From a bacterium (GTDB lineage: Bacteria; UBA9089; CG2-30-40-21; SBAY01), in NCBI GenBank assembly GCA_040757115.1, contig JBFLYA010000039.1, positions 1-24,086 of the forward strand: a stretch of 24,086 bases of DNA, in the 5' to 3' direction. The notes under the pieces are model-generated. The model did no database searches and was not told the origin of the DNA. It saw nothing but the letters and a program-made list of their open reading frames with translations. The number at the start of each line of letters is the position of its first letter. Within the stretch, counting starts at the first letter, position 1. This document shows positions 5,108-23,074 of the stretch, piece after piece. The position numbers and the translations under genes are program-made.

Positions 5108-5117
5108 AACATTTCTC

Positions 5118-5467
5118 GGTGGTGTCTGAAAATAACTCTAATAGTGAAATCTATGCAGATTTGGTGTCCAAAAGGGATTTCCTCCAAAGAGCAAAATGCA
5201 AAAAGCAAATATAAAAATTACATATCAAAATGTAAAATTATCTCTTTCCTTTCAGCGTTAAAATACTTGAAGCAAAGATATTACCAAATTCCTCCAACTC
5301 TTTGAGAAACCCTGCTACTTCCTCTTTGAAATTTGATTTGTAATTTTGCATTTTGATATTTAATATTTAATATTTGATATTTAATATTTATTTGTTGTCT
5401 CTCCCAAATCCTATTTTGCAGAATCCTATACACTATTTTAACCTTTATGCTAGATTAAGACATCACT
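5118..5467. mobile_element. MITE-like element, copy B, different cargo
   Basis: GGTGGTGTCT at 5118-5127 and AGACATCACT at 5458-5467 are the ends. They are flanked by CATTTCTC (5110-5117) and CATTTTTC (5468-5475), an 8-bp duplication with one mismatch. The outer left and right segments match copy A (1516-1715) almost base for base, but the centre carries a four-helix-bundle remnant instead of a palindrome. The right end overlaps the 3' end of the helicase gene and supplies its stop codon. Confidence 0.7.
5238..5351 (-). pseudogene. C-terminal remnant of a four-helix-bundle protein
   Basis: A 37-residue frame reads MQNYKSNFKEEVAGFLKELE and then EFGNIFASSILTLKGKR to a stop. The last part resembles the final helix of four-helix-bundle (23S rRNA intervening sequence) proteins. 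It lacks the first three helices. Both sides carry AT-rich inverted repeats (5185-5235 and 5340-5395), like the flanks of intact elements of this type. It is cargo of the MITE copy B and is probably not functional. Confidence 0.45.
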
Positions 5468-8453
5468 CATTTTTCCTGCTTACCAGTTCATCCACATACA
5501 ACAACCATCCTTCAAGCGTTTTATCTGGATAAATCTTTGAGAGTAATCTCAAATAGGTATTTACTTGTTTCTGGTGTTGTGCTGATTGGGGTTCACCGGA
5601 TTTAAACTCAATTACCACCACTTTATCTTGCCAGACCAGAAGCCGATCTACTCGATACTGTTGACCACTTTCATCGACTATCTCCTTTTCGCAATAGATA
5701 CTAATATCCGGTGCAAGCATAAACCATTTTCGCATCTCTTCTCTTTTAAAAAAATCTCTCAAGATAGGAATTATCTCCTGTTTATCTTGACTTAAAGTGC
5801 CAAACCTGTTCTCAATTTCTTCCTCCCATTGTTCCGATAGCCTTTCTATCCCCGCGAGAAACTCGTGAATAAATATTCCTCTCTCTTTAGCCTTTTTACG
5901 GCCAGTATCCCGCAATTCATCGATATTTATCTTTGGACGATAAAGTTTATCTTGCCATTCATTGACCTGGGGAGGATAGATATGACTTTTTCTCTGCTCT
6001 AAAGTTTTTGGAGTTTGAATAAGAGGTGAGCCAATCTCAAGGCGGGGTTCAAGAATTGGCACAGGTAACTTTTTATGACCTTTGAATTTCGGAAGAAAGA
6101 TATAAAGTTCATCAATAGCACGGGTCAATGCCACATAAAATATATTTAGCCCTTCTATCAATTGGGCGGTGAATTCTCTCTCGTAAAGTTCCCTTAGTTT
6201 TGCAGATGCCTCTCGATATTTTTCAACAATACGATAAGGTATAATTCCCTCACCATCCTTTTCATAAATCTCATTAATTGTTGATTTTTCCAGATATGCA
6301 AATGGATAAATGACTACTGGAAATCCAAGCCCTTTTGCCTTATGGATGGTCATTACCCGAATGGCGTTGGCATAGCCGGGTAAAACCACCTGAAAGTCCT
6401 TTTTCTCCTCTTCATCTTTGTTCCAGCGGGCAAGAAACGACTTAAGGCTATTTTCCCCTTCTACCTCAGTGTTTTTCAACACCTCAAGCAATTGAAAAAA
6501 GAATCCTTCTTCATTTGGAAATTCCTGAAACACATTATACCCTTTCAAGATTTTGCTGACTAAATCATAAGGCGGCAGAAAGCCAACCATCTGAAAATAG
6601 TTTTCTAAATGCGACTCCCATACCTCCGGGAATTCATCGCGGAAAAGGGTGTAAAGAGCCTTTCTTTTTATTCGATTTTTAAGAAGAAAGGAATAAATCG
6701 TGAAATGAGTAAGCCCACTTGCCTTGAGGAAAATATCCCCTTGCAAAAAGCCTGCAAATGAAAGATTGTCAATGGGTGAGTTCAGGAATTTTAAGAAACA
6801 GACTATTTCCTGAATCAAGTGGTGTGAAGAAATGTCAAGGGTCATTTCTGAAGCCACGGCAATCCCTGCACCAGTTAAAACCCTGGTAACCCATGATGCC
6901 TCATCATTCGTTCTAACAAGAATGGTAACTTCCCCTGGAGAAAATCTATGGATTATTTTGTTCTGAATGACATCAACAAGATACTGTTCAATTTTCGGAT
7001 ATAATTCATCTTTATCCAATGGTTCATCTATCGACTCTATTCGGACATATCCACCTCTAAATTTCTCTTTTGATTTCTGTTGGCTATGGAGATAAGTTTC
7101 AAAGGGAATGGAGAGTTTTACCTCTTCTGCCCAATGGCTTAGATTTTCCTGGCAAAAGGTATTATTGACAAATTCAACGATATTCTCCCGACTTCGGTAG
7201 TTTATCTCCGGGAATTCTTCTTTAATTTTCTCTTTCTCTACGCTTGGGAAATTTGCTTTTGCCTCATCAAAAAGGGCACTTTCTCCCCCTCTGAAGCCAA
7301 AGATAGCCTGTTTTTTATCACCAACATAGAAAAGCGAACCTGTCTTTGAAAGTGCCTCTTCGATAAGCGGAAATAAGGTTTGCCACTGGCTTCGACTCGT
7401 ATCCTGAAATTCATCTATAAAGAAATGTGCAATACGGTCACCGAGATGAAAATAAACTTCTGGAACAGCCCCTTCGTTTTCAAGGAATGTGTTCAACAGG
7501 ATGTTCAGGTCTTCGATGAAGATGATTTGCATGTGTTTTTTAAAGGAATCAACACCTTCATCAAAATGGCTAATAATATCAATGAATGGGGCAAAACGGC
7601 AGTGCGCGGTCATTTCGGCAAGGGAAGATATACCCTGCCGAATCTCCTGCCATATCTTCTGATGGGAAGGGGTAATAATTGAACCTTTGTTACAAATCTC
7701 ATTCACAGCATCCTTTAGAAACATTTTACTTTCCCAGGGTTGATAGTGAGCATCATTTCTGAAATTGTCAACGGCTCTCTTAAAGTGTGTATTAAACATT
7801 ACCTTTTCCTTGCCCATTTCACAAAATCCTTCCACATCTTTGATAAGATTCGTTCGTAGTTTTTTTATATCTTCGCTTGTGCAAACTCTTTTTACCTTGA
7901 GTCCTTTTAGAACCTCCAGTTTTCTTAGACTACTGATATTTGTAAGGATTTCGTTCTTTATATTCCAGGTAATCCTTGAATTGATATGCAGAAGTTCATC
8001 GACAAAATTAAGGAAGATAGCCTCGAGGGGGGAATTATGATATACCTGAGAGAGAAGTTCATCAAGGGCAAAATTGAATGCCTGGGATGAGCTCATTTCT
8101 ATTTCAAAATGTGGTGGAATCCCCAATTCAAGGGCAGAGGCAGTAGTTACTGATGTCAGAAAAGAGTCAATGGTTTGCACCTTAAAATCTGAATAATTAT
8201 CAAGTAGTTCATTCAGTTTTTTTTCAGCTAATTCTTTGTTTTTAGAATCACCGAGAGCCATTTTCTTAAGGTCAAAAATGATTCTTTCCTTCATCTCACC
8301 AGCGGCTTTGTTGGTAAAGGTAATAGCCAGGATGTTGCGGGCAGAGGTTTTTATCTCTGGCGAAATGAGAAACTTTATATAGCGTTCAGACAGGGTCATA
8401 GTTTTCCCCGCACCTGCTGAAGCAGATATAACCAGAATATGTGGAAATTCCAT
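5463..8453 (-). CDS. UvrD/RecB-family helicase-nuclease (AddA-like)
   Basis: About 996 residues. Superfamily 1 helicase motifs appear in order: Walker A SASAGAGKT (10-18), motif Ia ITFTNKAAGEMKERI (44-58), motif II DEFQD (347-351), motif III GDKKQAIFGFRGG (378-390), motif IV YRSR (419-422), motif V MTIHKAKG, and motif VI FYVALTRA. The C-terminal 130 residues form a PD-(D/E)XK nuclease with RVDRLL, VVVIEFKSG and a following Q. It should process double-strand breaks for recombination as in AddA or RecB, although it is shorter than the usual 1,150-1,250 residues. No AddB or RecC partner lies in the window. I prefer the ATG at 8453: an upstream TTG at 8492 would place 13 codons inside the inverted repeat of the element at 8471-9270. 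The stop codon lies in the TIR of the MITE ending at 5467, so the native C-terminus may have been trimmed. Confidence 0.88.
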   Translation of the reverse strand: MEFPHILVISASAGAGKTMTLSERYIKFLISPEIKTSARNILAITFTNKAAGEMKERIIFDLKKMALGDSKNKELAEKKLNELLDNYSDFKVQTIDSFLTSVTTASALELGIPPHFEIEMSSSQAFNFALDELLSQVYHNSPLEAIFLNFVDELLHINSRITWNIKNEILTNISSLRKLEVLKGLKVKRVCTSEDIKKLRTNLIKDVEGFCEMGKEKVMFNTHFKRAVDNFRNDAHYQPWESKMFLKDAVNEICNKGSIITPSHQKIWQEIRQGISSLAEMTAHCRFAPFIDIISHFDEGVDSFKKHMQIIFIEDLNILLNTFLENEGAVPEVYFHLGDRIAHFFIDEFQDTSRSQWQTLFPLIEEALSKTGSLFYVGDKKQAIFGFRGGESALFDEAKANFPSVEKEKIKEEFPEINYRSRENIVEFVNNTFCQENLSHWAEEVKLSIPFETYLHSQQKSKEKFRGGYVRIESIDEPLDKDELYPKIEQYLVDVIQNKIIHRFSPGEVTILVRTNDEASWVTRVLTGAGIAVASEMTLDISSHHLIQEIVCFLKFLNSPIDNLSFAGFLQGDIFLKASGLTHFTIYSFLLKNRIKRKALYTLFRDEFPEVWESHLENYFQMVGFLPPYDLVSKILKGYNVFQEFPNEEGFFFQLLEVLKNTEVEGENSLKSFLARWNKDEEEKKDFQVVLPGYANAIRVMTIHKAKGLGFPVVIYPFAYLEKSTINEIYEKDGEGIIPYRIVEKYREASAKLRELYEREFTAQLIEGLNIFYVALTRAIDELYIFLPKFKGHKKLPVPILEPRLEIGSPLIQTPKTLEQRKSHIYPPQVNEWQDKLYRPKINIDELRDTGRKKAKERGIFIHEFLAGIERLSEQWEEEIENRFGTLSQDKQEIIPILRDFFKREEMRKWFMLAPDISIYCEKEIVDESGQQYRVDRLLVWQDKVVVIEFKSGEPQSAQHQKQVNTYLRLLSKIYPDKTLEGWLLYVDELVSRKNE

Positions 8454-9955: not shown

Positions 9956-10120
9956 TTTACTCTAATTTTTTTTGGATTTTATCGACCTGCATGACCTTTT
10001 GCCGCACCATCTATAATGGTGTTGCTCAGATATAGCAATTAGCAATCGACTTTTTAACCAGGCTCGAGCTATATTTAAACAACACATTCATTCGTAGTGG
10101 TATATTATACCCAAATAAAT

Positions 10121-10262
10121 TGAGTTTGCAAATATTTTGCTCTAAAAAGGGAGCAAGGATTTGAGGGGTCAAGGATTCAAGGGAGGTGAAAAATAAGGTG
10201 TTCACTCGCCCCCTGGATCCCTTGACTCCTTGAATCCTTTCAAGAAAGTTTTTGCAAACCTG
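10121..10262. repeat. Palindromic mini-element ending in TTTGCAAA
   Basis: TTTGCAAATATTTTG on the left is answered by GTTTTTGCAAAC on the right. Inside, AAGGATTTGAGGGGTCAAGG (10156-10175 region) is inverted in CCCTTGACTCCTTGAATCC (10220-10240 region). The transcript would form a long hairpin. A 102-codon minus-strand frame across it is explained by the repeat. Nothing else was recognised in 9956-10339 apart from a small CACCAT-CTATA-ATGGTG hairpin near 10010. Confidence 0.55.
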
Positions 10263-10339
10263 TTTTCTTTGAGTATAATTATTCGGCATTAACCTCTTCT
10301 TCTGTAGAATACCCCAAAAAGTAATATTAACCACCTAAA

Positions 10340-10368
10340 ATTATACAAAATTTACTATTTTTTGTCAA
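10340..10368 (-). promoter_or_regulatory. Leftward promoter of the first attI module
   Basis: On the minus strand TTGACA (10363-10368), a 17-bp spacer and TATAAT (10340-10345) form a perfect consensus promoter. The same promoter, at the same relative place, serves intI at 15049-15077. Here no integrase follows; the next gene reading left is tmk. Confidence 0.7.
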
Positions 10369-10376
10369 TGTTTTTA

Positions 10377-10405
10377 TTGACAAGTTGAGATAATAGTGAT
10401 AAAAT
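10377..10405 (+). promoter_or_regulatory. Cassette promoter Pc of the first array
   Basis: TTGACA (10377-10382), 17 bp and TAAAAT (10400-10405) read right into the first array. The corresponding promoter in the second module is TTGACT-18-TAAAAT at 15086-15115. Confidence 0.7.
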
Positions 10406-10448
10406 ACAGAAAAACTGTATAATCACTTGTTAGACTAAAAGAGATTAA

Positions 10449-10613
10449 ACCACGAAAGGCAGAGAGAACACGAAGTGAAATTTGATGAAATATCTAATAA
10501 AGTTAGCAAATATTAAAGTTGGCTTGTTGATAAATTTTAATGTAGAAAGGTTGAAAGAAGGCATAAAAAGATTTGTCTTGTCCAATCTTCGTGACCTTCG
10601 TGCTCTTCGTGGT
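10449..10613 (+). pseudogene. GxxExxY remnant forming a gene-less cassette
   Basis: ACCACGAAAGGCAGAGAGAA at the left and CTTCGTGCTCTTCGTGGT at the right are inverted ends. Between them the reading EVKFDEISNKV (family N-terminus) is followed, in another frame, by KVGLLINFNVERLKEGIKRF (family C-terminus). The central catalytic region is deleted. It is the only content of the first cassette (10430-10665), between the first attI and the first attC. It resembles the insertion at 8652-8863 but has a different deletion end point. Confidence 0.65.
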
Positions 10614-10622
10614 AAAAGAACA

Positions 10623-10671
10623 GTCTAACAAAACAATGAACCTGACAGAGCAGATTATTTTATCGTTGGGC
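10623..10671 (+). other. attC site 1 (49 bp)
   Basis: R'' GTCTAAC (10623-10629) and R' GTTGGGC (10665-10671). The arms AATGAACCTG and CAGATTATT pair with one mismatch, leaving the extra G unpaired as in canonical attC sites. It is nearly identical to the site at 19115-19163 in the other array. Confidence 0.75.
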
Positions 10672-10678
10672 GGGCTAC

Positions 10679-11395
10679 ATGAAAGGGTCTAACATGCAAG
10701 ACTATGAGCGCCAAGTCAAACTCAAGTTCAAGTTGCTTGCCACTTTCTACGATTTGTCCGATATACCCTTCCTATTGAACGGAAAGGGGAATCCTAGACG
10801 CGCCCTGGCACGGAAGATACCTAACGAGACTTTGCGTATCTTGGATGTATGCGTCGGAAGTGCAAACAGTGCGATAGCCGTCGCGGAAGCCAATGACCAA
10901 AACGAGATTATCGGGGTAGACTTATCCCCTGATATGATTGCTGTGGCTGAAAGCAAAATTCGGAGACGTGGCATACAGAATATCTTCATTCACCAAATGG
11001 ACGCAACTAAGATGACGTTCCAAGATGGCGAATTTGATATTGCTATGATTTCGTTTGGGTTACATGAATTGGATTATGACCTGATGATAGACATACTGAA
11101 AGAGATGTGCCGTGTACTCAAAGAATCAGGTAAACTGTATCTCGTTGACTACGAGCGAGAAGATGGTCTCCTGAAGAATCTTGTGCTCTCCATTCATTTG
11201 AAGATTTTTGAGCCAAGCCATATGCCGCAGTTTCTCAAGTATGATTGGGTTGAGATACTGCAAAGCATAGGATTTCAAGTCACCGAGACAGAGAAGTACC
11301 TGTTCTCTAAACTGATTTGCGCTGTCAAGCAATCCAATGCGGAACTCACCGCCGCCCAACAAGCGGTTGCAGCCGACCGCCTTCGGCGCGGGTAA
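10679..11395 (+). CDS. Class I SAM-dependent methyltransferase (cassette gene)
   Basis: A 238-residue UbiE-like methyltransferase. Motif I is ILDVCVGSANSA (54-65), in which the usual GxGxG is replaced by VGSANS. An acidic residue follows at the end of strand 2 (GVDLSPDM, D81). QMDATKMTFQDGEFDIAMIS (106-125) covers the adenine-binding and post-strand-4 motifs, and RVLKESGKLYLVDY follows. The substrate is unknown. The ATG at 10679 is close behind attC 1; an ATG at codon 6 (10694), preceded by AAAGGG, is an equally good start. The last 13 or so residues (after ELTAA) and the stop lie inside the attC at 11354-11481, so the tail is attC-encoded. Base composition is visibly richer in GC than the surrounding genes, which fits acquisition as a cassette. 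Confidence 0.85.
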   Translation: MKGSNMQDYERQVKLKFKLLATFYDLSDIPFLLNGKGNPRRALARKIPNETLRILDVCVGSANSAIAVAEANDQNEIIGVDLSPDMIAVAESKIRRRGIQNIFIHQMDATKMTFQDGEFDIAMISFGLHELDYDLMIDILKEMCRVLKESGKLYLVDYEREDGLLKNLVLSIHLKIFEPSHMPQFLKYDWVEILQSIGFQVTETEKYLFSKLICAVKQSNAELTAAQQAVAADRLRRG

Positions 11396-11481
11396 GCGTG
11401 GCGCACTTTGCCAGCAATCGTTCTGGTTAGCGTGGCGAATCTCGCCATAGTCGGCGGCGGCTGAACCGCAGGCCGTTAGAC
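11354..11481 (+). other. attC site 2 (128 bp, GC-rich)
   Basis: R'' GCCCAAC (11354-11360) and R' GTTAGAC (11475-11481). The arms GGTTGCAG and CTGAACC pair with one extra G, the classic attC signature. The loop is GC-rich (GTGGCGCACTTTGCC and GTGGCGAATCTCGCC) and unlike the AT-rich loops of array 2, so this cassette probably came from another integron pool. Confidence 0.85.
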
Positions 11482-11504
11482 AAAAACAACTTTGGAGATT
11501 ATCT

Positions 11505-11822
11505 ATGATTTCTGAAAAAACAATTAAAAAAGCAATAGAACGATTGATAGAGGTAGCAAAGCCACAAAAGATATACCTATTTGGCTCTTATGCGCGTGGT
11601 GATGCTCGAGAACAATCTGATTTAGACTTTTTGATTGTTGAACAAACGATAAAAAGTCAACGAAAGGAAATGGTTTATCTCCATGATGCAATTCGTTCAA
11701 TGTGTATTCCTGTAGACATTATACCTGTAAGCGAAGCTACTTTTAATGAATGGTCCAATGTGCCAGGTACTGTCATCCATAAAGCCAGAACTGAAGGACG
11801 ATTATGCTATGAAAAATCGTAA
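11505..11822 (+). CDS. MNT-type nucleotidyltransferase (antitoxin-like)
   Basis: A 105-residue minimal nucleotidyltransferase of the DNA polymerase beta superfamily. The signature GSYARG (27-32) with SDLD (38-41) and a third acidic position in PVDII (about 70) supplies the metal-binding triad, so catalysis looks intact. Proteins of this size usually pair with a HEPN-domain toxin in MntA/HepT systems, where the MNT protein modifies (AMPylates) the HEPN RNase. Here the partner frame overlaps by 14 bp (ATG at 11809) but is broken by intron sequence. It is the first gene after attC 2. The ATG follows a weak GGAG motif. Confidence 0.85.
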   Translation: MISEKTIKKAIERLIEVAKPQKIYLFGSYARGDAREQSDLDFLIVEQTIKSQRKEMVYLHDAIRSMCIPVDIIPVSEATFNEWSNVPGTVIHKARTEGRLCYEKS

Positions 11823-12153
11823 ACTTGCAGAACGGTTTCTGAGGCTTGAACCAAAAGGTAAGTGGGAAGCCATTAACTGGCAGAAAGTAAACACTGAAGT
11901 AAGAAGGCTGCAAATGCGTATTGCAAAGGCAGAGCGGGAAGGGAAATATTTACTTTTCCATGGTTTGAGCAATCAACTAAGATATTTGGTTATACTGCCG
12001 GGTTTTAGTAATAGAACCATACAGATGCTTGAGCCGTGTGCGGGGAAACTCGCTCGCACGATTCTTAGGGGGAAAGTGAGGCGAGAGCCTCGCGCTCTAC
12101 CCGATTCCCCAGCTTCACATTGGGTTCTTGCCATGCAATGTCCTCCACTATGA
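11809..12153 (+). pseudogene. HEPN start fused to a group II intron maturase fragment
   Basis: The first 14 residues (MKNRKLAERFLRLE) resemble the beginning of a HEPN partner of MNT proteins. The frame then switches to KGKWEAINWQKVNTEVRRLQ and MRIAKAEREGKY, the N-terminal domain of group II intron reverse transcriptases (family pattern W..I-W..V...V..LQ.RI.KA). After about residue 50 the similarity stops and the frame runs into intron RNA domains V and VI. No polymerase domain is present. The HEPN identification rests on 14 residues and gene position only; the maturase identification is stronger. The product is very unlikely to be functional. Confidence 0.6.
11855..12105 (+). mobile_element. 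Group II intron remnant with domains V and VI
   Basis: The 34-nt sequence at 12031-12064 starts GAGCCGTGTGCGG and ends CGCACGATTC, which is the domain V hairpin of bacterial group II introns. One C-A mismatch sits where a C-G pair is usual. It is followed by a domain VI hairpin (GAGGC-GAGA-GCCTC, about 12078-12091) ending CTACCCGAT, with a candidate branch A near 12099 and the 3' end at about 12105. Domains I-III and most of the reverse transcriptase are missing, so it cannot splice or move unaided. Confidence 0.7.
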
Positions 12154-12161
12154 GGTGAAAT

Positions 12162-12566
12162 ATGTGGAATTATCGAGTTGTACGGAAAAAACATATTTGC
12201 GTTGATTCAACAGATAATAAAGAAAGAGTGGACTACACATATGCCATACATGAGGCATACTACGACAAAGAAAGATATGTTGGAGCTATCACCAACGATC
12301 CAGTTGAGCCTTTCGGAGAGAATATCGAAGAGTTACGGCATTCATGGGTAATGATGGCAGAGGCATTCGGTCAGCCAATCCTTGACTATGACAATATTCC
12401 TGAGCCGGGATACGAGAGAAAAGAAGACTCCATGGGTTCTGCACTTGATGAAAGACTCAAAGAACTGGAAACTGGTAGCACTAAGCTAATTCCATGGGAG
12501 CAGGTAAAGAGGGACTTAGAAGAAAAATATGGGCAGTTTGACGAAGAGGGTATAGAAAATGGGTAG
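12162..12566 (+). CDS. Hypothetical protein with MWNYRV...YAIHEAYY motif
   Basis: A 134-residue soluble protein. The N-terminal 80 residues (MWNYRVVRKK, YAIHEAYYDKE, EPFGENIEELRHSWVMMAEA, PILDYDNIP) have the pattern of small alpha/beta proteins often seen as unnamed cassette or toxin-antitoxin-adjacent genes. The C-terminal part (LKELETGSTKLIPWEQVKRD) resembles tails of RelB/Phd-like antitoxins. I do not recognise a functional family. An AGGTG motif 7 bp upstream supports the ATG. It directly follows the intron remnant and has no attC of its own that I can see. Confidence 0.65.
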   Translation: MWNYRVVRKKHICVDSTDNKERVDYTYAIHEAYYDKERYVGAITNDPVEPFGENIEELRHSWVMMAEAFGQPILDYDNIPEPGYERKEDSMGSALDERLKELETGSTKLIPWEQVKRDLEEKYGQFDEEGIENG

Positions 12567-12666
12567 AAGAAGATAGGATAGAGAAAGAGAGGATACACAC
12601 CGAAGCCTTTGTTGGCACACCGACAATAGAGGAAACTTATCAACAAAATTTATTCCGATTATCGTG
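12554..12666 (+). pseudogene. Possible coding remnant downstream in another frame
   Basis: A frame without a start codon reads WVEEDRIEKERIHTEAFVG then TPTIEETYQQNLFRLS to a stop. The composition looks protein-like. It overlaps the end of the preceding gene in a different frame, so it may be the tail of a frameshifted or replaced gene. No family is recognised. Confidence 0.25.
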
Positions 12667-12747
12667 AATATATACAACGAGATAAGACTGAAAACCCCTG
12701 GAAATATACAAAGGATGATTAACGAAAGGTTAAATAGGTAGCAAAAA

Positions 12748-13110
12748 ATGGGCATGTTTAATTCAATATATGCTGATCTCTTGTGTCCTGATAAACAGGA
12801 GATAAGCAAAGATACGGAAATTCAAATTAAGTGGCAGAAACCAGAATCTCGTAGCCTCAATATTTATCATTTGGGTGACATATTGGAAGAGATTGAAAAT
12901 GAATATAATAATAATTGGATTCGGAGGGACTACATTTGTAATACTTGCTCAAAACATACAAAAGGCTATAAAGGTAGACCATATATTAAAGTTGATGACC
13001 AAAAAAGGCATTATGTTTTTATTAGAATTGAAAAAGCCAGAATTTGTGATATTCTTACTGAAGAAGAATTCAGACAAAAGGGGATAAAGGAATTTGTTGA
13101 CTATTGGTAA
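12748..13110 (+). CDS. Hypothetical protein with putative zinc-binding cysteines
   Basis: A 120-residue protein of unknown function. It begins MGMFNSIYADLLCPDKQ and has a CNTCSKHTK segment at about 64-72. The leading MGMF..IYADLLCP pattern is shared by small proteins with zinc-ribbon-like cysteines, but only three cysteines are arranged suitably here (C13, C64, C67), so metal binding is uncertain. The C-terminal half has alternating strand-like stretches (HYVFIRIEKARICDI). No strong Shine-Dalgarno motif is seen. It lies in the attC-poor part of array 1 with its neighbours in the same orientation. Confidence 0.6.
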   Translation: MGMFNSIYADLLCPDKQEISKDTEIQIKWQKPESRSLNIYHLGDILEEIENEYNNNWIRRDYICNTCSKHTKGYKGRPYIKVDDQKRHYVFIRIEKARICDILTEEEFRQKGIKEFVDYW

Positions 13111-13146
13111 GATATAAAGCAGAAAGTCAGAGTCGGACATTGAAAG

Positions 13147-13515
13147 ATGAGAGGAAAAATGAAACCAGAAAAGACGATAACTATCATGGCAGATTTTGGA
13201 TTCGGTCCGTATGCGTGGCTTAAGGACGCTTCGGATGAAACAGATTATGTTGGTTTAAACATTGCAAATCGTGAAACTGGTATGACTGAATTTGATATCT
13301 CAAAACAGCTTGAAACAGATTTTGCCGAATGGATTACCCGCTTCGAACGACACGCACTGAACAACAGTGACTTCCCATGGGAATTGTTTCATCAAGATGG
13401 TCTGCTTCTTGCCAAAAGGCTCAAACAAGAAGTTGGAAATGTGGCTAATGTTGTGTATGTAAAACCAACGGAAGACCCTAATCACCAGGTCGAGGAGAAA
13501 ACATGGATTGAATGA
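13147..13515 (+). CDS. Hypothetical protein (MADFG.GPYAWLKDA type)
   Basis: A 122-residue protein; the core starts MADFGFGPYAWLKDASDETD. It continues with VGLNIANRETGM, FAEWITRFERHALNN, FPWELFHQDGLLLAKRLKQE and VVYVKPTEDPN. I associate this pattern with small unnamed proteins of scattered distribution; no activity is known to me. The ATG at 13147 or the one at codon 5 (13159) may be the start, and AGAGGAAAA precedes the second. It ends 97 bp before the intI stop codon, reading toward it, so the two genes converge. Confidence 0.65.
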   Translation: MRGKMKPEKTITIMADFGFGPYAWLKDASDETDYVGLNIANRETGMTEFDISKQLETDFAEWITRFERHALNNSDFPWELFHQDGLLLAKRLKQEVGNVANVVYVKPTEDPNHQVEEKTWIE

Positions 13516-13612
13516 AGGAAGAAAAAGGAAAAAAGAGGAAAAGGGGAGAAAGGGAAGACTAATGTCACATTTTGAGTGAGTATTGACAAGAGGTATGGCT
13601 TAAGGCAATTTA

Positions 13613-14995
13613 TCAGGAAAGTTTCGCTGAAGGGTTAGCAAAATCGAGGGGGCTTTTAGCCTCTTTGACAGTTGAACTTTTGATTGTATGGGTATAAATC
13701 ATGGTTGTTCGGACATCACTATGTCCCAGCAACTCCTGAATAGTTCTGATATCGTAATTGGCTTGTAAGAGATGTGTGGCAAAGCTATGGCGGAAGGTAT
13801 GGGCTGAAACCCGCTTCATAATCTTCACCTTTCTGACCGCCTGTTTAATTGCTCTGTGCACATGAGTCTCATATAGATGATATCTCTTTAATTCCTTTGA
13901 ATCAAGAACAAAGGTCAACATTTTAGATGGAAAAAAACACTGCCAGATTAATTCCTTCCCACAATCCTTATATTTCTTTTCGAGCAAGCCAGTTATAAAT
14001 GCGCCTGCGTAGCCTGCCTTGAGGTCATTCTGGTGCAACTCCTTCACTTTTTCGAGATGAACCTTTAATTGAGGTATAATTGTCTGTGGTAAAGGCACGG
14101 TTCTATCTTTTTGTCCTTTACCGTCGTGGACTGTGAGGATACCGGCATCAAAATTGAAATTGTGAAGCCGAAGATTCAGGCACTCAAACAAGCGTAAGCC
14201 ACAGCCATACAACAACTTTACCACAAGGTCATAAGGATATGAAAGATGGGTAAAAATTGCTTCTATTTCCTCTCTGGACAAAACAACTGGTATATAGCGT
14301 CTTCTCTTTGCTCTAACATTATCCCGATGGTCGCCAAAATCCTTTTTTAGGACATGCCTGAATAAAAAAAGGAGTGCATTAAATGCCTGATTCTGGGTAG
14401 AAGCCGAGACATTCTGCTTGACAGCTAAATATTTAAGAAATTCTTGGACATCCTGGGAAGAAAGTGACAGAGGGGATTTGTTTTTGGTAAAAGTGTAGAA
14501 CCTTCTCAACCACATTACATATACCCTTAATGTTTTCGGAGAATAGTGTCTTATTTTTATTTCAGCCAGCAAATTTGTGTAAATTTTCTTCCATTCTGAG
14601 GTTGAATCATTCTTCTGGATGGATTCTTCCTGAACCTGTGGTAAGGAAGATGATATTGAAATCCTTTCTACCATCTTCAAACTCGGCTGTCCATTTACAT
14701 CTAAATTCATTTTGTTCTTATCCACTGGATTAACATTGGTCTCCAATACTTCGTAATAAAGATATACGGAATGAGCCGCTTGTTTTTGCTGTATTTGTGT
14801 CTGGTGTTTTTCCTGTAATTTCTTTATAAACTGAGCAAGATTTTCCCTATTTGAATATTCAAGGTTATATTTATGGCAAAAGTCAAAATAATACCTCAGC
14901 CATTTTTTATAATTGGTCTGCTCAGAAATAGGGATTGACTTTTTAGTCAGTATTGAGCTATAGTGGGCAAATACTTCTATTGGGATATTAATCAT
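13613..14995 (-). CDS. intI: Integron integrase with N-terminal extension
   Basis: A 460-residue tyrosine recombinase that recombines attI and attC sites, folding attC as single-stranded bottom-strand DNA. Catalytic residues: R268 in YGCGLRLFECLNLR, K293 or K296 in DGKGQKDRTVPLP, H399 and R402 in HTFRH, H425 in LLGHSD, and Y434 in TTMIYTH. The IntI-specific extra segment before box II is present at about 348-380 (ELIWQCFFPSKM, then KRYHLYETHVHRAIK) and separates it from XerC/D. The C-terminus KSPLDF is also IntI-like. Most IntI proteins have 320-340 residues; here residues 1-130 are an added domain (KKWLRYYFDFCHKYNLEYS) that looks like a second SAM-like core-binding domain, followed by a linker. 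AAGGAG 10 bp upstream supports the ATG. Transcribed from the promoter at 15049-15077 and divergent from array 2. Confidence 0.93.
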   Translation of the reverse strand: MINIPIEVFAHYSSILTKKSIPISEQTNYKKWLRYYFDFCHKYNLEYSNRENLAQFIKKLQEKHQTQIQQKQAAHSVYLYYEVLETNVNPVDKNKMNLDVNGQPSLKMVERISISSSLPQVQEESIQKNDSTSEWKKIYTNLLAEIKIRHYSPKTLRVYVMWLRRFYTFTKNKSPLSLSSQDVQEFLKYLAVKQNVSASTQNQAFNALLFLFRHVLKKDFGDHRDNVRAKRRRYIPVVLSREEIEAIFTHLSYPYDLVVKLLYGCGLRLFECLNLRLHNFNFDAGILTVHDGKGQKDRTVPLPQTIIPQLKVHLEKVKELHQNDLKAGYAGAFITGLLEKKYKDCGKELIWQCFFPSKMLTFVLDSKELKRYHLYETHVHRAIKQAVRKVKIMKRVSAHTFRHSFATHLLQANYDIRTIQELLGHSDVRTTMIYTHTIKSSTVKEAKSPLDFANPSAKLS

Positions 14996-15013
14996 GCAGA
15001 ATTCACTCCTTTC

Positions 15014-15028
15014 TTGATATCATATCAA
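15014..15028. promoter_or_regulatory. Palindromic operator candidate in the intI leader
   Basis: TTGATAT-C-ATATCAA is a perfect 7-bp inverted repeat between the intI promoter and its start codon. It lies downstream of the expected transcription start (about 15042), a position suited to a repressor. The binding protein is unknown, and it does not match the E. coli LexA box. Confidence 0.5.
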
Positions 15029-15048
15029 AAGTAATGTTATCTTGTTAG

Positions 15049-15077
15049 ATTATACAAAATTAAGTAAGATTTGTCAA
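15049..15077 (-). promoter_or_regulatory. intI promoter
   Basis: On the minus strand TTGACA (15072-15077), a 17-bp spacer and TATAAT (15049-15054) give a perfect consensus promoter for intI. A CTTGTTAGAT motif (15041-15050), like the attI core, overlaps the -10 box, so integrase binding there could reduce its own transcription. Confidence 0.75.
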
Positions 15078-15085
15078 ATTTTTTC

Positions 15086-15115
15086 TTGACTTTTCTGATG
15101 GGTTTGTGATAAAAT
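15086..15115 (+). promoter_or_regulatory. Cassette promoter Pc of array 2
   Basis: TTGACT (15086-15091), 18 bp and TAAAAT (15110-15115) read right through the attI core into the first cassette. Placement between intI and attI matches the usual Pc position. Confidence 0.7.
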
Positions 15116-15236
15116 ATAACAAAAGTGTATAATAACTTGTTAGACAGAGAGATATATTTCCAAGTTTGGTCAGTATATAAACGAGGTGCACGAAGTTACG
15201 TCATAAAAATACCACTTTGATTTGAGGAGGTAGTTT

Positions 15237-15818
15237 ATGAATTCGATAATAATAACCGCCCTAAGTGCTCAGATAACTGCCATTTTGGTAGTCATATTTA
15301 GTACATTCTTTGCCAAAAGAAAAGAGACGCAGACAGGACGATCTAAATTCTTCGAATCACTGGATAAAAAGTTCGATATAGGATTTGTTAAAGATCGATC
15401 GGATATTGAAATACTCAAAAGTGCAATTGAGAGAGAAGCGGGTGCTGTTTACTCATTAGCTCCCCTACTTGAGGACTATCTTGTTCATCTCACTCACAAA
15501 GGTACTCAAGAATCAACTGATACTACTTTATCTGAGCGGTATCAAATAATTAAAGAAATAATTGTTCAGGAAAATGCAGACAAACCCTTTGCAGATGTTC
15601 CAGAAGAAGAAAGGCAGTTATTAATAAGAATACGAGACGGGACCCAACATAATGACAAAGAATCTATCTTATTCAATCTAAACGAATTAAGTTCCGTTAT
15701 CTCGGTACGAACCAAAGATTATGAAAGAACCATGAAAACAAATAGATGGGCAGTGCCTCTTGCTGTAATTGGTTTACTTGCCTCAATTGTCTTTGGTGCA
15801 TTTAGCTTGTTGAAATAA
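15237..15818 (+). CDS. Membrane-anchored protein with two terminal TM helices
   Basis: A 193-residue first-cassette product. Residues 4-25 (IIITALSAQITAILVVIFST) and 171-191 (WAVPLAVIGLLASIVFGAFS) are transmembrane. The roughly 140 residues between them are charged and helical, and should face the cytoplasm given the basic residues after the first helix (FAKRKETQTGR). No catalytic motif is seen and no family is recognised. The topology resembles small membrane effectors in phage-defence or toxin systems, but that is only a resemblance. GAGGAGG 7 bp upstream is a strong ribosome binding site. As the first cassette after Pc it is probably well expressed. Confidence 0.7.
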   Translation: MNSIIITALSAQITAILVVIFSTFFAKRKETQTGRSKFFESLDKKFDIGFVKDRSDIEILKSAIEREAGAVYSLAPLLEDYLVHLTHKGTQESTDTTLSERYQIIKEIIVQENADKPFADVPEEERQLLIRIRDGTQHNDKESILFNLNELSSVISVRTKDYERTMKTNRWAVPLAVIGLLASIVFGAFSLLK

Positions 15819-15824
15819 TGCCCT

Positions 15825-15886
15825 ATCTAACCAATCGCTGCACCTGACCCTCGCTTCACTCGGGCAGGTGAGCTTTATCGTTATGT
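15825..15886 (+). other. attC site A (62 bp)
   Basis: R'' ATCTAAC (15825-15831) and R' GTTATGT (15880-15886). The arms GCTGCACCTG and CAGGTGAGC pair with one extra G. The loop is short (ACCCTCGCTTCACTCGGG) and lacks the triplicate AAAGTTT motif of the long sites. Confidence 0.85.
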
Positions 15887-15920
15887 GGGAAGAATATGAT
15901 AAATTGATTGGGGGAAACAA

Positions 15921-16271
15921 ATGAAAGAAAAGAATGTATGGTGCAAAATAATAGAAGCGGTTACTGCTCCACTTGGTTTTTTTGTTCTCGCTCTTTTGAT
16001 TGTTGAATCTTTCTTGGCTATTGTCCTTACAGGTGGCAAACTAGAAAAAAACGATCAAATGATAGGCATTTACATTGGTATCGCTTTGTTCGTCTTTGTT
16101 ACAATTCTTGTTTTTATATTAGTTTGGCACAAACCGAAAAATTTAACCTTTGATAAGGAGTCACACTTAATCGACCAAGGGAAGGCTCCCTTCGGAACAG
16201 ACTCTACAACAGTTCTAAATAGGGACAAACTGTTGCCTACAGAAGCAAATGGAAAAGGAGGCAACTCATGA
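15921..16271 (+). CDS. Two-TM small protein, first gene of a two-gene cassette
   Basis: A 116-residue protein with two transmembrane helices at about 16-37 (APLGFFVLALLIVESFLAIV) and 48-69 (IGIYIGIALFVFVTILVFIL). A cytoplasmic tail of about 45 residues begins WHKPKNLTFDKESHLID. The APLGFFVLALLIVE...KPKNLTFD pattern looks like a conserved family of small 2TM proteins, which I cannot name with certainty. Its stop overlaps the start of the next gene by 4 bp (ATGA), so the two are translationally coupled and probably work together. A GGGGG motif 7 bp upstream supports the ATG. A 2TM protein coupled to a small nucleotide/RNA-type protein suggests a membrane effector, which is inference. Confidence 0.7.
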   Translation: MKEKNVWCKIIEAVTAPLGFFVLALLIVESFLAIVLTGGKLEKNDQMIGIYIGIALFVFVTILVFILVWHKPKNLTFDKESHLIDQGKAPFGTDSTTVLNRDKLLPTEANGKGGNS

Positions 16272-16540
16272 AAGCATACACAATAAATTATGATTTAAAA
16301 GCTCCTGATAGAAATTATGATGGTCTTTACGAAGCAATTAAAAAATCACCAAAATGGTGGCATTATTTAGAATCTACCTGGATTATTATTACAAATGAAA
16401 CACCTAATCAAATATGGCAACGTATAGAGCCTTTTGTTGATAAAAATGATTATTTATTGATTATAGAAGTCCGAGATAATGTGCAAGGATGGCTACCTAA
16501 GGATGCATGGGATTGGATTCATACAAATGTACCTAGATAA
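16268..16540 (+). CDS. Small Cas2/SinR-like ferredoxin-fold protein
   Basis: A 90-residue protein. It starts MKAYTINYDLKAPDRNYDGL, with a strand ending in an aspartate (D9). A helix (YEAIKKSPKWWHYLESTW) and strand (WIIITNETP) follow, then a helix (IWQRIEPFVDKN), a strand (YLLIIEV) and a short tail (GWLPKDAWDWIHTN). The order and the Y-D-L after strand 1 match the fold of Cas2/VapD-like proteins and database entries called SinR family, which have no proven function. There are no other cas genes nearby, so a CRISPR role is unlikely. An RNase or RNA-binding role is possible but unproven. It overlaps the 2TM gene by 4 bp and has AAGGAGG upstream. Confidence 0.7.
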   Translation: MKAYTINYDLKAPDRNYDGLYEAIKKSPKWWHYLESTWIIITNETPNQIWQRIEPFVDKNDYLLIIEVRDNVQGWLPKDAWDWIHTNVPR

Positions 16541-16544
16541 AAGC

Positions 16545-16676
16545 ACATAACCAATCGCTGCACCTGACCGCCAACAGTGTAGCGGTTTTGCAAAGTTCTG
16601 TGCCCTATTAAAGTTTAGTGGTTTTACAAAGTTTTGTGTCCATCCTGTTGGCGGCAGGTGAGCTCAATCGTTAGCT
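16545..16676 (+). other. attC site B (132 bp) with triplicate loop motif
   Basis: R'' ACATAAC (16545-16551) and R' GTTAGCT (16670-16676). The arms GCTGCACCTG/CAGGTGAGC and, further in, CGCCAACAG/CTGTTGGCG form a long stem. The loop holds CAAAGTTCTGTG (16591-16602), TAAAGTTTAGTGG (16610-16622) and CAAAGTTTTGTG (16627-16638). Confidence 0.85.
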
Positions 16677-16795
16677 GCCATCACCCTATCAAGTGGAGAA
16701 GGAGAAGGGAGAAAGAATAGTGGCAGAAGGAACACCAGAGCCAGTATCTGCCACCGATACAGGCCAGTTTTGAAAAAAATGCTATCCGCTAAAGG

Positions 16796-16825
16796 TTGAG
16801 AAGATTTGAGAGGGAATGGTATAAT
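16796..16825 (+). promoter_or_regulatory. Promoter of the MNT-HEPN gene, probably leaderless
   Basis: TTGAGA (16796-16801), 18 bp and TATAAT (16820-16825). The ATG is at 16834, only 8 bp after the -10 box, so transcription would start at or next to the start codon. No ribosome binding site is present, consistent with a leaderless mRNA. Confidence 0.6.
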
Positions 16826-16833
16826 ATAAATTT

Positions 16834-17709
16834 ATGAAGAAGAGCATAGACCATCTTTCTTTCAGAAAACAGAGGGAATTAGAGACTGTCGTCAGGGTCA
16901 TTCGTAATGTAGTAAGGGTAGAGATGATTGTCTTATTTGGAAGCTATGCCAGGGGAGACTTTGTTGACTATGACTTTCGATACGATGCTGAAGAAGGACA
17001 TTTCACCAGTTATGAAAGTGATTTTGACATTATGGTCATTGTCCAGGAAGAAAAGATAGCGGAAGATTTTAGGATTTGGGGAAGAATTGAAAATCAACTT
17101 AGACACAAAATCCCTACACCCGTAAAGCTCGTTACCGAAGATATTGAGCATGTCAATGAACAACTTTCAGTGGGCAGATACTTTTATGCTGAGGTCAAGA
17201 AAGAAGGCATACTCCTTTATGATTCAAAACGCTTTCAACTTGCAAGGGCAAGGAAGCTCACTCCAGGAATAAAAAAGGCACTGGCAGAGGAGGATTATAA
17301 GCTTTGGTTTCCAAAGGCAAAGGAGTTTTTTGTGAATTTCGAATTTAACTTTGAGAAAGGCTGGAATAATTTAGCTGCCTTTAACCTTCACCAAACCACA
17401 GAGTCTCTATACAGTGGTGCTTCCCTTGTCCTTACCAGCTACAAACCGAAGACGCACGATCTGGAAAAACTAACAAAGCGTATGGAAAAAATTGACTTGG
17501 ATTTTAAAAAGATTTTCCCCCGAGAACAAGCTGAAGAAAAGCGCCTCTTTGAGCTTCTTAGGAAGGCCTATGTTGATGCAAGATACAAGAAATCATATAA
17601 GATTACCAAATCTGAACTGGAATACTTAGCGGAAAGGGTAAAGAAACTGCGTAGATTAGCCTTAAGAAAGAGCAGAGAGAAGATTAAAGAGTTTGAATTA
17701 AGCCCCTGA
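16834..17709 (+). CDS. Fused MNT nucleotidyltransferase-HEPN protein
   Basis: A 291-residue protein. The N-terminal nucleotidyltransferase domain has GSYARG (36-41) and SDFD (62-65), with about 20 extra residues between them; a third acidic site may be in the LVTED region. Residues about 145-285 form a HEPN domain: LWFPKAKEFFVNFEFNF, NNLAAFNLHQTTESLYSGAS, the characteristic KTHDLEKL (about 207-214), and LLRKAYVDARYKKSY near the end. In two-gene MNT/HEPN systems the antitoxin and toxin are separate; here they are fused, as in a known family of unclear role. The canonical HEPN R-x4-6-H RNase motif is not obvious, so nuclease activity is doubtful. It is the first gene of the third cassette and has its own promoter right at the start codon. 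Confidence 0.85.
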   Translation: MKKSIDHLSFRKQRELETVVRVIRNVVRVEMIVLFGSYARGDFVDYDFRYDAEEGHFTSYESDFDIMVIVQEEKIAEDFRIWGRIENQLRHKIPTPVKLVTEDIEHVNEQLSVGRYFYAEVKKEGILLYDSKRFQLARARKLTPGIKKALAEEDYKLWFPKAKEFFVNFEFNFEKGWNNLAAFNLHQTTESLYSGASLVLTSYKPKTHDLEKLTKRMEKIDLDFKKIFPREQAEEKRLFELLRKAYVDARYKKSYKITKSELEYLAERVKKLRRLALRKSREKIKEFELSP

Positions 17710-17723
17710 TCTGCAATATCAAG

Positions 17724-17752
17724 TTGACTAAACCCTTTATTTGTAGGATAAT
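17724..17752 (+). promoter_or_regulatory. Promoter of the toxin-antitoxin pair
   Basis: TTGACT (17724-17729), 17 bp and GATAAT (17747-17752) lie about 100 bp upstream of the antitoxin gene. A small hairpin CTGCC-AATA-GGCAG (about 17789-17802), followed by TATAAT, could be an operator or a second promoter. Confidence 0.5.
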
Positions 17753-17851
17753 TTAGCCAATACAACTTTCCTTACAGCAATATAAAGCTGCCAATAGGCA
17801 GTATAATCCTAGGTTAGCTAATATAAAAGAAACACAACGGGAGGTGGTAAT

Positions 17852-18070
17852 ATGGCAGTTACTATTCCATTAGATCAAATGACTACAGCAGAGAAACTTC
17901 TATCAATGGAGAATATATGGGATGATTTATGCCGAAGGGCAGATGAAATCTCTTCTCCGCCCTGGCATGGGGAGGTTCTCCAGCAGAGGGAAGAAAAAGT
18001 AAAGAAAGGGGTAGAGGAATTTACTGATTGGGAGAATGCCAAAGGGAAAATAAAAGAGTCTGTTTCATGA
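17852..18070 (+). CDS. Addiction-module antitoxin (ParD-like component)
   Basis: A 72-residue protein matching the short putative addiction module component family: LLSMENIWDDLCRRADEISS, then PPWHGEVLQQREEKVKKG, ending with a helical, charged tail. Such proteins neutralise a ParE/RelE-type toxin encoded immediately downstream and usually repress their own promoter. GGGAGGTGG 6 bp upstream is a strong ribosome binding site. The stop overlaps the toxin start (ATGA), so translation is coupled. It follows the MNT-HEPN gene after 142 bp with no recognisable attC between them, so both may share one cassette or an attC has decayed. Confidence 0.85.
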   Translation: MAVTIPLDQMTTAEKLLSMENIWDDLCRRADEISSPPWHGEVLQQREEKVKKGVEEFTDWENAKGKIKESVS

Positions 18071-18360
18071 AAATCAAAATTCTTGAATCGGCATCCCAGG
18101 ATTTAATCGAAGGCTACTGGTTCTACGAAAAACAGCAAGAAGGTCTCGGTAGTTACTTTCTTGATACATTGTTTTCGGATATTGATTCACTACAGATTTA
18201 TGCTGGCATTCATCCCATATATTTTGAACGATATTATCGTTCACTATCTAAACGTTTCCCATTTGCTATTTATTATCGTATTGAGCAAAGAACAGTAGTG
18301 GTATATGCAGTACTTGATTGTCGTCGAAATCCAGCATGGATAAAAGACAGATTAAAATAA
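18067..18360 (+). CDS. ParE/RelE-family toxin
   Basis: A 97-residue type II toxin. Family features are KIKILESASQDLIEGYWFYE at the start, the central FERYYRSLSKRFPFAIYYRI and VVVYAVLDCRRNPAWIKDRL at the end, where the conserved basic C-terminus lies. ParE members poison DNA gyrase and RelE members cut mRNA on the ribosome; the sequence alone does not decide which. I chose the ATG at 18067 because it overlaps the antitoxin stop by 4 bp and the family homology begins there. A frame starting at 18028 is only an upstream extension. The cassette ends in a broken attC (18363 onward). Confidence 0.88.
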   Translation: MKIKILESASQDLIEGYWFYEKQQEGLGSYFLDTLFSDIDSLQIYAGIHPIYFERYYRSLSKRFPFAIYYRIEQRTVVVYAVLDCRRNPAWIKDRLK

Positions 18361-18362
18361 GA

Positions 18363-18436
18363 AGCTAACCAATCGCTGCACCTGACCGCCAACAATCTGT
18401 AGTTTTTCAAAGTTCTGTGCCCTATCAAAGTTTAGC
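18363..18436 (+). other. Left half of an attC site, right half lost
   Basis: AGCTAAC, GCTGCACCTGACCGCCAAC and two AAAGTT repeats match the left half of attC B. The right arm is absent: from about 18450 the sequence becomes the 3' part of the gene-less cassette (as at 18770-18987). The toxin-antitoxin cassette is thus fused to a truncated gene-less cassette and now uses its attC. Confidence 0.7.
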
Positions 18437-18537
18437 GGAGATATGAGCGGGAGATATGAGGGTCAAACCGTGAATGTGGAATGCACAATAATTCGGTGAG
18501 GCAGAGGAAAAGGAAAAGACAGCGAATCAGAGCTTTT

Positions 18538-18669
18538 GTCTAACCCTGCGTTGCAGTTGACGGCGGGGGACTGTGCCGTGGTCAGAGTTTTGTGGTCTCT
18601 CAAAGTTTTATCTTGCTATCGAACTTTTGTGGTAATCCTCCCCGCCGCACCTGAACTTTATCGTTAGAC
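18538..18669 (+). other. attC site D (132 bp)
   Basis: R'' GTCTAAC (18538-18544) and R' GTTAGAC (18663-18669). The arms GTTGCAG/CTGAAC (extra G) and CGGCGGGG/CCCCGCCG form the stem. The loop has three AAAGTTTTGTGG-like repeats. It is nearly identical to the sites ending at 18987 and 19482. Confidence 0.85.
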
Positions 18670-18981
18670 TAATAAAAATAATCACACAGAGACACAAAGT
18701 CACAAAGGAATTGAATAAAACAATAAACCTTTGTGTTCTTTGTGGCTTTGTGTGAGAAAATAAAAAGGAGATATTTTAGGGGCAACCGTGAATGTGGAAT
18801 GCACAATAATTCGGTGAGGCAGAGGAAAAGGAAAAGACAGCGAATCAAAGCTTTTGTCTAACCCTGCGTTGCAGTTGACGGCGGGGGACTGTGCCGTGGT
18901 CAGAGTTTTGTAGTCTCTCAAAGTTTTATCTTGCTATCAAACTTTTGTGGTAATTCTCCCCGCCGCACCTGAACTTTATCG
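18664..18981 (+). mobile_element. Gene-less hairpin cassette, copy 1
   Basis: A complete 318-bp cassette without a plausible gene. Near its start, CACACAGAGACACAAAG (from 18684) and the further ACAAAGG arm pair over about 25 bp with CCTTTGTG...CTTTGTGTG, around a 19-nt loop. A conserved stretch follows (GTGAATGTGGAATGCAC and onward), then attC. Copy 2 is at 19158-19476, a third starts at 23938, and a 3' fragment lies at 18450-18663. The palindrome resembles the ends of four-helix-bundle/GxxExxY elements. Confidence 0.75.
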
Positions 18982-18987
18982 TTAGCC
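18856..18987 (+). other. attC site E (132 bp)
   Basis: R'' GTCTAAC (18856-18862) and R' GTTAGCC (18981-18987), with the same stem and triplicate loop motif as attC D. It closes gene-less cassette copy 1. Confidence 0.85.
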
Positions 18988-19157
18988 CGCTGCAAAGAAA
19001 CAGACTCGGAACGTAAGTGGTGAAGAAGTATCCTGGAGCAGAAATAGCGAAGAAGTGGCTTGGAAGAGGAGCAGCGAAGAAGTAGTGTGGAGAGGAAATG
19101 ACAAAGAAATGAATTCCTAACAAAACAATGAACCTGACAGAGCAGGTTATTTTATCG
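18982..19157 (+). mobile_element. Mini-cassette with 27-bp tandem repeats
   Basis: A 176-bp cassette. Three consecutive 27-bp units each begin GAAGAAGT and contain a TGG at a fixed place (about 19020-19100); a partial fourth unit follows. On the plus strand they encode a nine-residue repeat of the EEV-x-W type (EEVSWSRNS, EEVAWKRSS, EEVVWRGND) ending KEMNS-stop, but there is no start codon. On the minus strand a 65-codon TTG-started frame gives an aromatic-rich repeat running into attC. Neither is convincing as a gene. Confidence 0.6.
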
Positions 19158-19163
19158 TTAGAC
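19115..19163 (+). other. attC site F (49 bp)
   Basis: R'' TCCTAAC (19115-19121) and R' GTTAGAC (19157-19163). The arms AATGAACCTG and CAGGTTATT pair perfectly apart from the extra G. It is almost identical to attC 1 in array 1. Confidence 0.8.
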
Positions 19164-19476
19164 TAATAAAAATAATCACACAGAGACACAAAGTCACAAA
19201 GGAATTGAATAAAACAATAAACCTTTGTGTTCTTTGTGGCTTTGTGTGAGAAAATAAAAAGGAGATATTTTACGGTCAAACCGTGAATGTGGAATGCACA
19301 ATAATTCGGTGAGGCAGAGGAAAAGGAAAAGACAGCGAATCAAAGCTTTTGTCTAACCCTGCGTTGCAGTTGACGGCGGGGGACTGTGCCGTGGTCAGAG
19401 TTTTGTGGTCTCTCAAAGTTTTATCTTGCTATCAAACTTTTGTGGTAATTCTCCCCGCCGCAGCTGAACTCTATCG
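19158..19476 (+). mobile_element. Gene-less hairpin cassette, copy 2
   Basis: 319 bp and nearly identical to copy 1, including the 25-bp hairpin near its start. Differences are few (for example GGTCAAACC in place of GGGCAACC). The 1-300 bp stretch before the next gene contains no coding sequence. Confidence 0.75.
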
Positions 19477-19482
19477 TTAGAC
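19351..19482 (+). other. attC site G (132 bp)
   Basis: R'' GTCTAAC (19351-19357) and R' GTTAGAC (19476-19482), with the same stem and triplicate loop motif as attC D and E. It ends copy 2 of the gene-less cassette and precedes the TPR-SPFH cassette. Confidence 0.85.
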
Positions 19483-19623
19483 GCCATTTGTGGCAAAAAA
19501 GAAAATTTAAAAAAAGAATTGTCTCATTTTTATTAAATTAGGATTTGCAGTATTTGTGTTGATGGTGTTATTACCCAACATGTTTGAGAACTGTTAAAGT
19601 TAATTAAAAGGAGAAATAAAAAA

Positions 19624-21222: not shown

Positions 21223-21234
21223 AGGGAGGTCTAT

Positions 21235-22611: not shown

Positions 22612-22663
22612 AATAACTTTTTGGGAAAGAGAGATGGGACGGTTCTTTTTTGCCACAAACAGC

Positions 22664-22722
22664 ATATAACCCAGCACAGATGAAATTGCTTCACAACTTC
22701 GTCTGTGCTGGGAACGTTGGAA
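22664..22722 (+). other. attC-like hairpin site H (59 bp)
   Basis: ATATAAC (22664-22670) and GTTGGAA (22716-22722) enclose an 11-bp perfect stem, CCCAGCACAGA/TCTGTGCTGGG, extended by GAA/TTC. It closes the TPR-SPFH cassette. The cores match each other poorly and there is no spacer between core and arm, so it is a diverged attC or simply a terminator-like hairpin (no T-run follows). Confidence 0.45.
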
Positions 22723-22791
22723 TAATAATTACACAAAAACAATGAGGTCATAAGGAACAATGAATGAAAACGAATAAATCCGGTGAACGGT

Positions 22792-22854
22792 TTGCGGTTA
22801 GCGGTAAGTGATAATCGAACGATGACAACTGACCATCCAATACCGATAACCGCT
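22792..22854. repeat. Inverted repeat GCGGTTA-G-CGGTA
   Basis: GCGGTTA-G-CGGTA near 22794 is answered by TACCG-A-TAACCGC near 22841-22853. It lies in the gene-less stretch 22723-22911, between attC-like site H and attC I, which may be another small non-coding cassette. A TGTGTGAGAAAA segment near 22890 matches the end of the hairpin cassettes and looks like a decayed copy. Confidence 0.5.
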
Positions 22855-22911
22855 TTCGTAGGTGAACATATTTTGTCTCTTTATGATGTTGTGTGAGAAA
22901 AGAAAGAAGGA

Positions 22912-23043
22912 TTCTAACAAGTCGTTGCAGCGGACGGCGGGGACTCTGCCGAGATTGAAAATTTTGTGGTATCTCAAGGAGTAATCATGTTTACAAAGTT
23001 TGGTGGTAATTCTCCCCGCCGCACCTGAACTTTATCGTTAGGC
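22912..23043 (+). other. attC site I (132 bp)
   Basis: R'' TTCTAAC (22912-22918) and R' GTTAGGC (23037-23043). The arms GTTGCAG/CTGAAC (extra G) and CGGCGGGG/CCCCGCCG match those of D, E and G. The loop has AAATTTTGTGG and CAAAGTTTGGTGG, so the triplicate motif is more diverged here. Confidence 0.85.
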
Positions 23044-23074
23044 TATAGGAATGAAATTTTTGGAGGAGGATACA

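Follow-up and report, generated by a model that had tools for sequence, protein, structure and literature searches.

The window, that is, the whole stretch of DNA analysed, is contig C39 in its entirety (24,086 bp), from a 4.32-Mb draft genome that is 99.87% complete and is split into 462 contigs. It carries an intact integron integrase gene, intI-2, lying between two cassette arrays, A and B, each of which starts at an attI site with a Pc promoter. A regular-expression finder missed many attC sites and a covariance model (R1) was used instead; two further models describe the first-family, or type I, attI/Pc module (R2) and the attI of a second family, type II (R3). The features relevant here, in order, are:

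9985-10103, minus strand: what is left of the lost integrase gene intI-1, about codons 3-33 in degenerate form (NIPLRMNVLFKYSSSLVKKSI...ISEQHHYR)
10104-10279, no strand assigned: MITE-like insertion in the intI-1 relic, from an inverted-repeat search, with intI homology resuming on both sides
10280-10339, minus strand: intI-1 leader with a degenerate start-codon region, aligned to other modules
10340-10435, plus strand: attI/Pc module 1, an orphan, crossover G|TTAGAC at 10429/10430 (R2 match, E 3.7e-27)
10340-10368, minus strand: former intI-1 promoter Pint, TTGACA-17-TATAAT, by promoter match
10377-10405, plus strand: Pc-1, TTGACA-17-TAAAAT, by promoter match
10430-10671, plus strand: cassette 1 of array A, no obvious ORF, short attC at 10623-10671
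10666-11481, plus strand: cassette 2 of array A, methyltransferase gene at 10679-11395, attC at 11354-11481
11476-13612, plus strand: distal array A, with a nucleotidyltransferase gene (11505-11822), a group II intron relic and three small ORFs
13613-14995, minus strand: intI-2, intact integron integrase of 460 aa (TIGR02249 372.5 bits, cut-off 265; PDB 2a3v)
15049-15145, plus strand: attI/Pc module 2, adjoining intI-2, crossover G|TTAGAC at 15139/15140 (R2 model)
15077-15049, minus strand, and 15086-15115, plus strand: module 2 promoters Pint (TTGACA-17-TATAAT) and Pc (TTGACT-18-TAAAAT), by promoter match
15140-24086, plus strand: cassette array B, attC at 15825, 16545, 18363, 18538, 18856, 19351, 22912 and 23810 (R1)
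17707-17817, plus strand: second-family (type II) attI with a Pc-like promoter (R3, 67.9 bits, E 3.2e-18)

Two homologous modules and their arrays

An earlier, sequence-only reading held that the blocks at 10340-10435 and 15049-15145 are homologous from end to end, and a pairwise alignment does span both, with a local score of 49 against 11.6 +/- 2.1 for 500 context-preserving shuffles (z 17.7). When the whole 4.3-Mb genome was searched, each block retrieved the other (76% identity, E about 9e-13). The homology in fact reaches beyond the blocks as first drawn, leftward into the intI leader and first codons. The promoters described in that reading are present in both modules: the leftward one matches the consensus at 12 of 12 positions in each, and the rightward ones have the sequences listed above, Pc-1 matching at 11 of 12 positions, a figure based on the consensus only. 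The CTTGTTAGAC cores lie at 10426-10435 and 15136-15145, and a search by eye found no convincing LexA/SOS box at the modules.

As had also been noted, only the second block adjoins an integrase gene. IntI-2 aligns with IntI4 (PDB 2a3v) through the tyrosine-recombinase motifs (E 2e-70), and module 2 stands beside an intact integrase with an IntI-specific signature, as expected of an integron platform. At its N-terminus the protein is extended by about 135 aa, as are homologues from anammox, deltaproteobacterial and Nitrospirae genomes. On the other side of module 2 extends an array of single orientation, with attC on the plus strand from 15825 onward. Within array B, the type II module at 17707-17817 stands upstream of an antitoxin/toxin-like pair, its promoter reading TTGACT...TAGGATAAT; R1 detects no attC behind the gene of the preceding ORF (16834-17709), and the type II attI occupies that place. 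A segment of another contig (C98:1792-1812) resembles this attC-replacing site. A gene-less cassette is repeated at 18663, 19157 and 23937 with >90% identity; it is also the first cassette at an orphan attI on C14 and, judged by its start, occurs on C244 and C60.

At module 1, the attI core is joined to canonical cassettes: the core GTTAGAC is complemented by the R'' of cassette 1 (GTCTAAC), and GTTGGGC at 10665 by the R'' of cassette 2 (GCCCAAC), whose attC scores 17.8 bits with R1 (E 0.006); the same junction is found at other loci. Farther along array A, R1 recognises no attC between 11476 and 13612. The group II intron relic in this part comprises a reverse-transcriptase N-terminal fragment (11746-12153) and a domain V (12029-12105), and is located where the third cassette of the array is missing its attC.

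Origin of module 1

Immediately left of module 1, the segment at 9985-10103 aligns with the 5' end of intI-2 (local alignment, z 10.7 against shuffles), a match detected as well by blastn (62 bp, 69%, E 5e-5) and by tblastn segments. Between these codons and the intI-1 leader sits the MITE-like insert, bounded by 35-nt imperfect inverted repeats (10104-10138/10245-10279; TATACCCAAA.../...TTTGAGTATA) and containing an inner hairpin as well. Two near-identical blocks elsewhere in the window (1516-1722 and 5116-5474) have inverted-repeat ends of their own (GGTGGTGTCTGAAAATAACTC / AGACACCACCGA) and resemble transposon ends or MITEs. Module 1 has no functional intI of its own, about 33 degenerate codons being left and these split by the insert, and the leader homology together with the codon relic indicates that it once had one, reading toward tmk. 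On its sequence, module 1 can therefore be identified as the orphan platform of a distinct integron that lost its integrase, which was among the origins first proposed for it. The leftward promoter does point geometrically at tmk, as had been suggested, but the MITE-like insert lies between the two and nothing shows that tmk is driven from it.

Another genome of this genus, assembled separately, retains both the sequence on the tmk side and the left half of module 1, each at 98%, with a different sequence between them. Since this linkage recurs at about 98% in an independent genome, the junction of tmk and module 1 is real and not a misassembly. The sister copy of module 1 breaks off at the -35 of Pc and its core is gone, so the orphan site is dispensable there. 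An orthologous array A was sought in that genome and rejected, the left half of module 1 alone surviving.

Modules of this kind are dispersed through the genome. R2 yields 12 matches (and several per genome elsewhere in the same order) and R3 yields 22, both counts including partial or weak matches and distal repeats of one module; the second family, which has a Pc of its own and the pattern GGCAGTATAATCTAAGG|TTAG, gives 14 pattern matches against 0 in a reversed control. Overall there are about 20 attI/Pc modules in two families (about 8 of type I; 8 full and 5 partial of type II), whole attI + Pc modules measuring 95-190 bp, and most have no adjacent integrase gene. The original view of two homologous modules was right as far as it went; the genome has many more modules, including a third, of the other family, in the window at 17707-17817. 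R1 places at least 142 attC in the genome; it detects few in distant integrons, where attC counts are not valid. Broken or partial intI genes number at least seven (C30, C63, C118, C116, C154, C324 and C114), and intI-2 is the one intact copy in the assembly, a count taken from contigs that break in repeats, where an intI could be missing or split. Where other type I modules are full-length but have no complete intI beside them, the intI leader is nearly always kept, and most relics there end within the first 5-35 codons. Among the type I orphans L004, L019, L067, L068, L076 and L189-L202, the remnants mostly end by codon 5-35 of 460, and ends near the gene start are commoner than random truncation would give. 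Our guess would be that selection kept Pc/attI while intI eroded stepwise, and that the relic ends cluster for this reason.

Taken together, module 1 is probably what survives of an older, related integron after destruction of its intI, namely attI, Pc and a dead integrase promoter, directly upstream of a complete integron (intI-2, module 2 and array B). It is one of about 20 modules dispersed through the cassette arrays of the genome; an integrase in trans can insert and excise cassettes at the orphans among them, and their Pc would express the nearest cassettes.

It is unlikely that module 1 arrived as a mobile promoter cassette, a Pc-attI piece moved by IntI, and not through decay in place. 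Such movement is suggested by type II modules. C60 is a housekeeping contig that has no intI, and its type II Pc-attI segment begins precisely at G|TT behind an attC. Type II modules have a second attI-like repeat about 135 bp upstream, and outside C60 the same G|TT falls in this repeat, ahead of Pc. In a genome of a related family (G014), four type II attI are interleaved with attC in one 13.4-kb contig (L223, G014:C49, 1-13431), with no integrase above the IntI cut-off. The C60 edge could also have come from a cassette that inserted in the distal attI repeat before the intI-side part was lost, and module 1, of type I, continues past any boundary of that kind into an intI leader and intI codons, as expected from decay in place. 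The left edges of the type I orphans were considered as IntI sites and rejected: they fall at about codon 3 to 63 and share no common G|TT. For type II, the C60 edge leaves a Pc-attI piece that may move as a cassette.

A recent tandem duplication of one integron (intI-attI-array) followed by loss of one intI, also among the original proposals, would account for two adjacent modules of the same orientation and layout, and is improbable on their relationships. Module 1 is just 72% identical to module 2, against 95% for the module of the sister genome, 83% for that of C63 and 78% for that of C98; module 2 is 88% identical to C14, and the two are separate in the module tree, whose deep support is weak. 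The third proposal, a merger of two integrons, holds to the extent that the tandem consists of two integrons that are related yet distinct. A chimeric assembly joining two integron contigs might be suspected in a draft genome rich in repeats, whose contigs break at arrays, and is very improbable given that tmk lies beside module 1 in the independent genome as well. The arrangement also has counterparts, an orphan attI, two attC sites, an intI pseudogene and an attI on C63, and array, intI pseudogene and array on C118. Chance resemblance of two AT-rich promoter regions can be dismissed on the shuffle and genome-wide statistics above and on the recurrence of this element ahead of intI genes in other genomes (L079, E 3e-21).

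Cassette exchange at orphan attI sites

Two further orphans, on C329 and C231, share a 219-bp block that is 94.6% identical and comprises a truncated intI start, leader, promoters and attI. On C231, a cassette (Y) directly follows the core (CTTG|TTAGGCTACTG), while C329 has an extra cassette (X) between core and Y: CTTG|TTATCAG ... GATAAC-attC ... ATCG|TTAGGCTACTG. Cassette X is bounded by G|TTATCA and CG|TTAGGC, and its R'' is complementary to its own R'; cassette Y is 91% identical between the two loci and is also found behind an attC on C116. By their sequences, the two loci differ by exactly one canonical cassette, a textbook insertion or excision. As both share the same intI loss, this exchange postdates that loss. 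C329 and C231 could be strain variants and not paralogues, and the recombination argument holds either way. The pair preserves natural evidence of an integrase acting at an attI that already lacked its own integrase.

Other junctions show the same cassettes at several sites. The first cassette of module 1 occurs, with an identical G|TTAGAC junction, at the orphan attI of C63 and an attC of C30, and also on C339 and C40, and the first cassette of the C14 orphan recurs behind many attC, three of them in this window. The proposal that two attI sites may be served by a single integrase finds support, in general, in cassette exchange at orphan attI elsewhere in this genome, but is unproven for module 1 itself: C63, the sister of module 1, has the same first cassette, and use of module 1 after its intI loss can only be surmised. 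We infer that IntI-2 is the enzyme acting at the orphan sites. With an intact core, a Pc-like promoter and two canonical cassettes, module 1 would still be a live site, and Pc-1 is predicted to be active and to drive array A.

In the sequence of events that we propose, integrons of two families would have been stacked in tandem and their intI genes would have decayed, while the attI/Pc parts outlasted them and an integrase in trans continued to load and unload them; Pc promoters at orphan attI would express the nearest cassettes. More tentatively, the attI/Pc platform may be both dispersed and mobile across this candidate phylum, with IntI moving Pc-attI as promoter-plus-entry-site cassettes. 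A large array could then take up and express cassettes at many places along its length, with a single integrase acting in trans or, as in G014, without any integrase that can still be recognised.

Comparison with known integrons

The textbook integron has one entry site and one promoter, with new cassettes entering at one end, and most cassettes of an array with a hundred or more members are thought to be silent. With about twenty attI/Pc modules, a genome could express and insert cassettes at many positions in its arrays, from platforms that outlive their integrases, and tools that define an integron as one intI beside one attI may miss such sites. Like sedentary chromosomal integrons (e.g. 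Vibrio superintegrons), the present system has intI divergent from attI/Pc, >100 near-identical attC, canonical G|TTRRRY junctions and repeated gene-less cassettes. It differs in that the usual platform, in general descriptions, consists of one intI and one attI, whereas here about 20 modules of two families, several of them inside arrays, accompany one intact intI.

Promoter-bearing gene-less cassettes are known in Vibrionaceae superintegrons and likewise place extra promoters inside large arrays; the difference is that here an attI-type recombination site accompanies the promoter (PMC11014356). CALINs, an IntegronFinder term for attC clusters without integrase, resemble these arrays in lying distant from any intI, but the arrays here keep attI and Pc (PMC7923331). 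Array A, whose two attC lie between attI-1 and an intact intI, falls outside that class. Class 2 integrons with a truncated IntI2 also have an attI served by an integrase encoded elsewhere, whereas here there are many such sites, within one chromosome (PMC12901181).

In class 1 and 2 integrons, delta-attI cassettes and attI1-cassette-attI1 arrays use an attI as the 3' site of a cassette within an array, as the type II attI at 17707-17817 may do here. Excision of attI1-aadB-attI1 and of truncated-attI cassettes by IntI1 has been demonstrated, and class 1/2 integrons contain such cassettes (PMC12901181). Those cassettes mostly retain 14-18 nt of attI, however, while the modules described here are whole attI + Pc units with intI relics of their own. 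We found no report in the open-licence literature of many whole attI/Pc modules in one chromosome, or of multiple, duplicated or orphan attI. Overall, integrons and truncated-attI cassettes are already known, and it is the dispersed multi-attI organisation that appears to be new.
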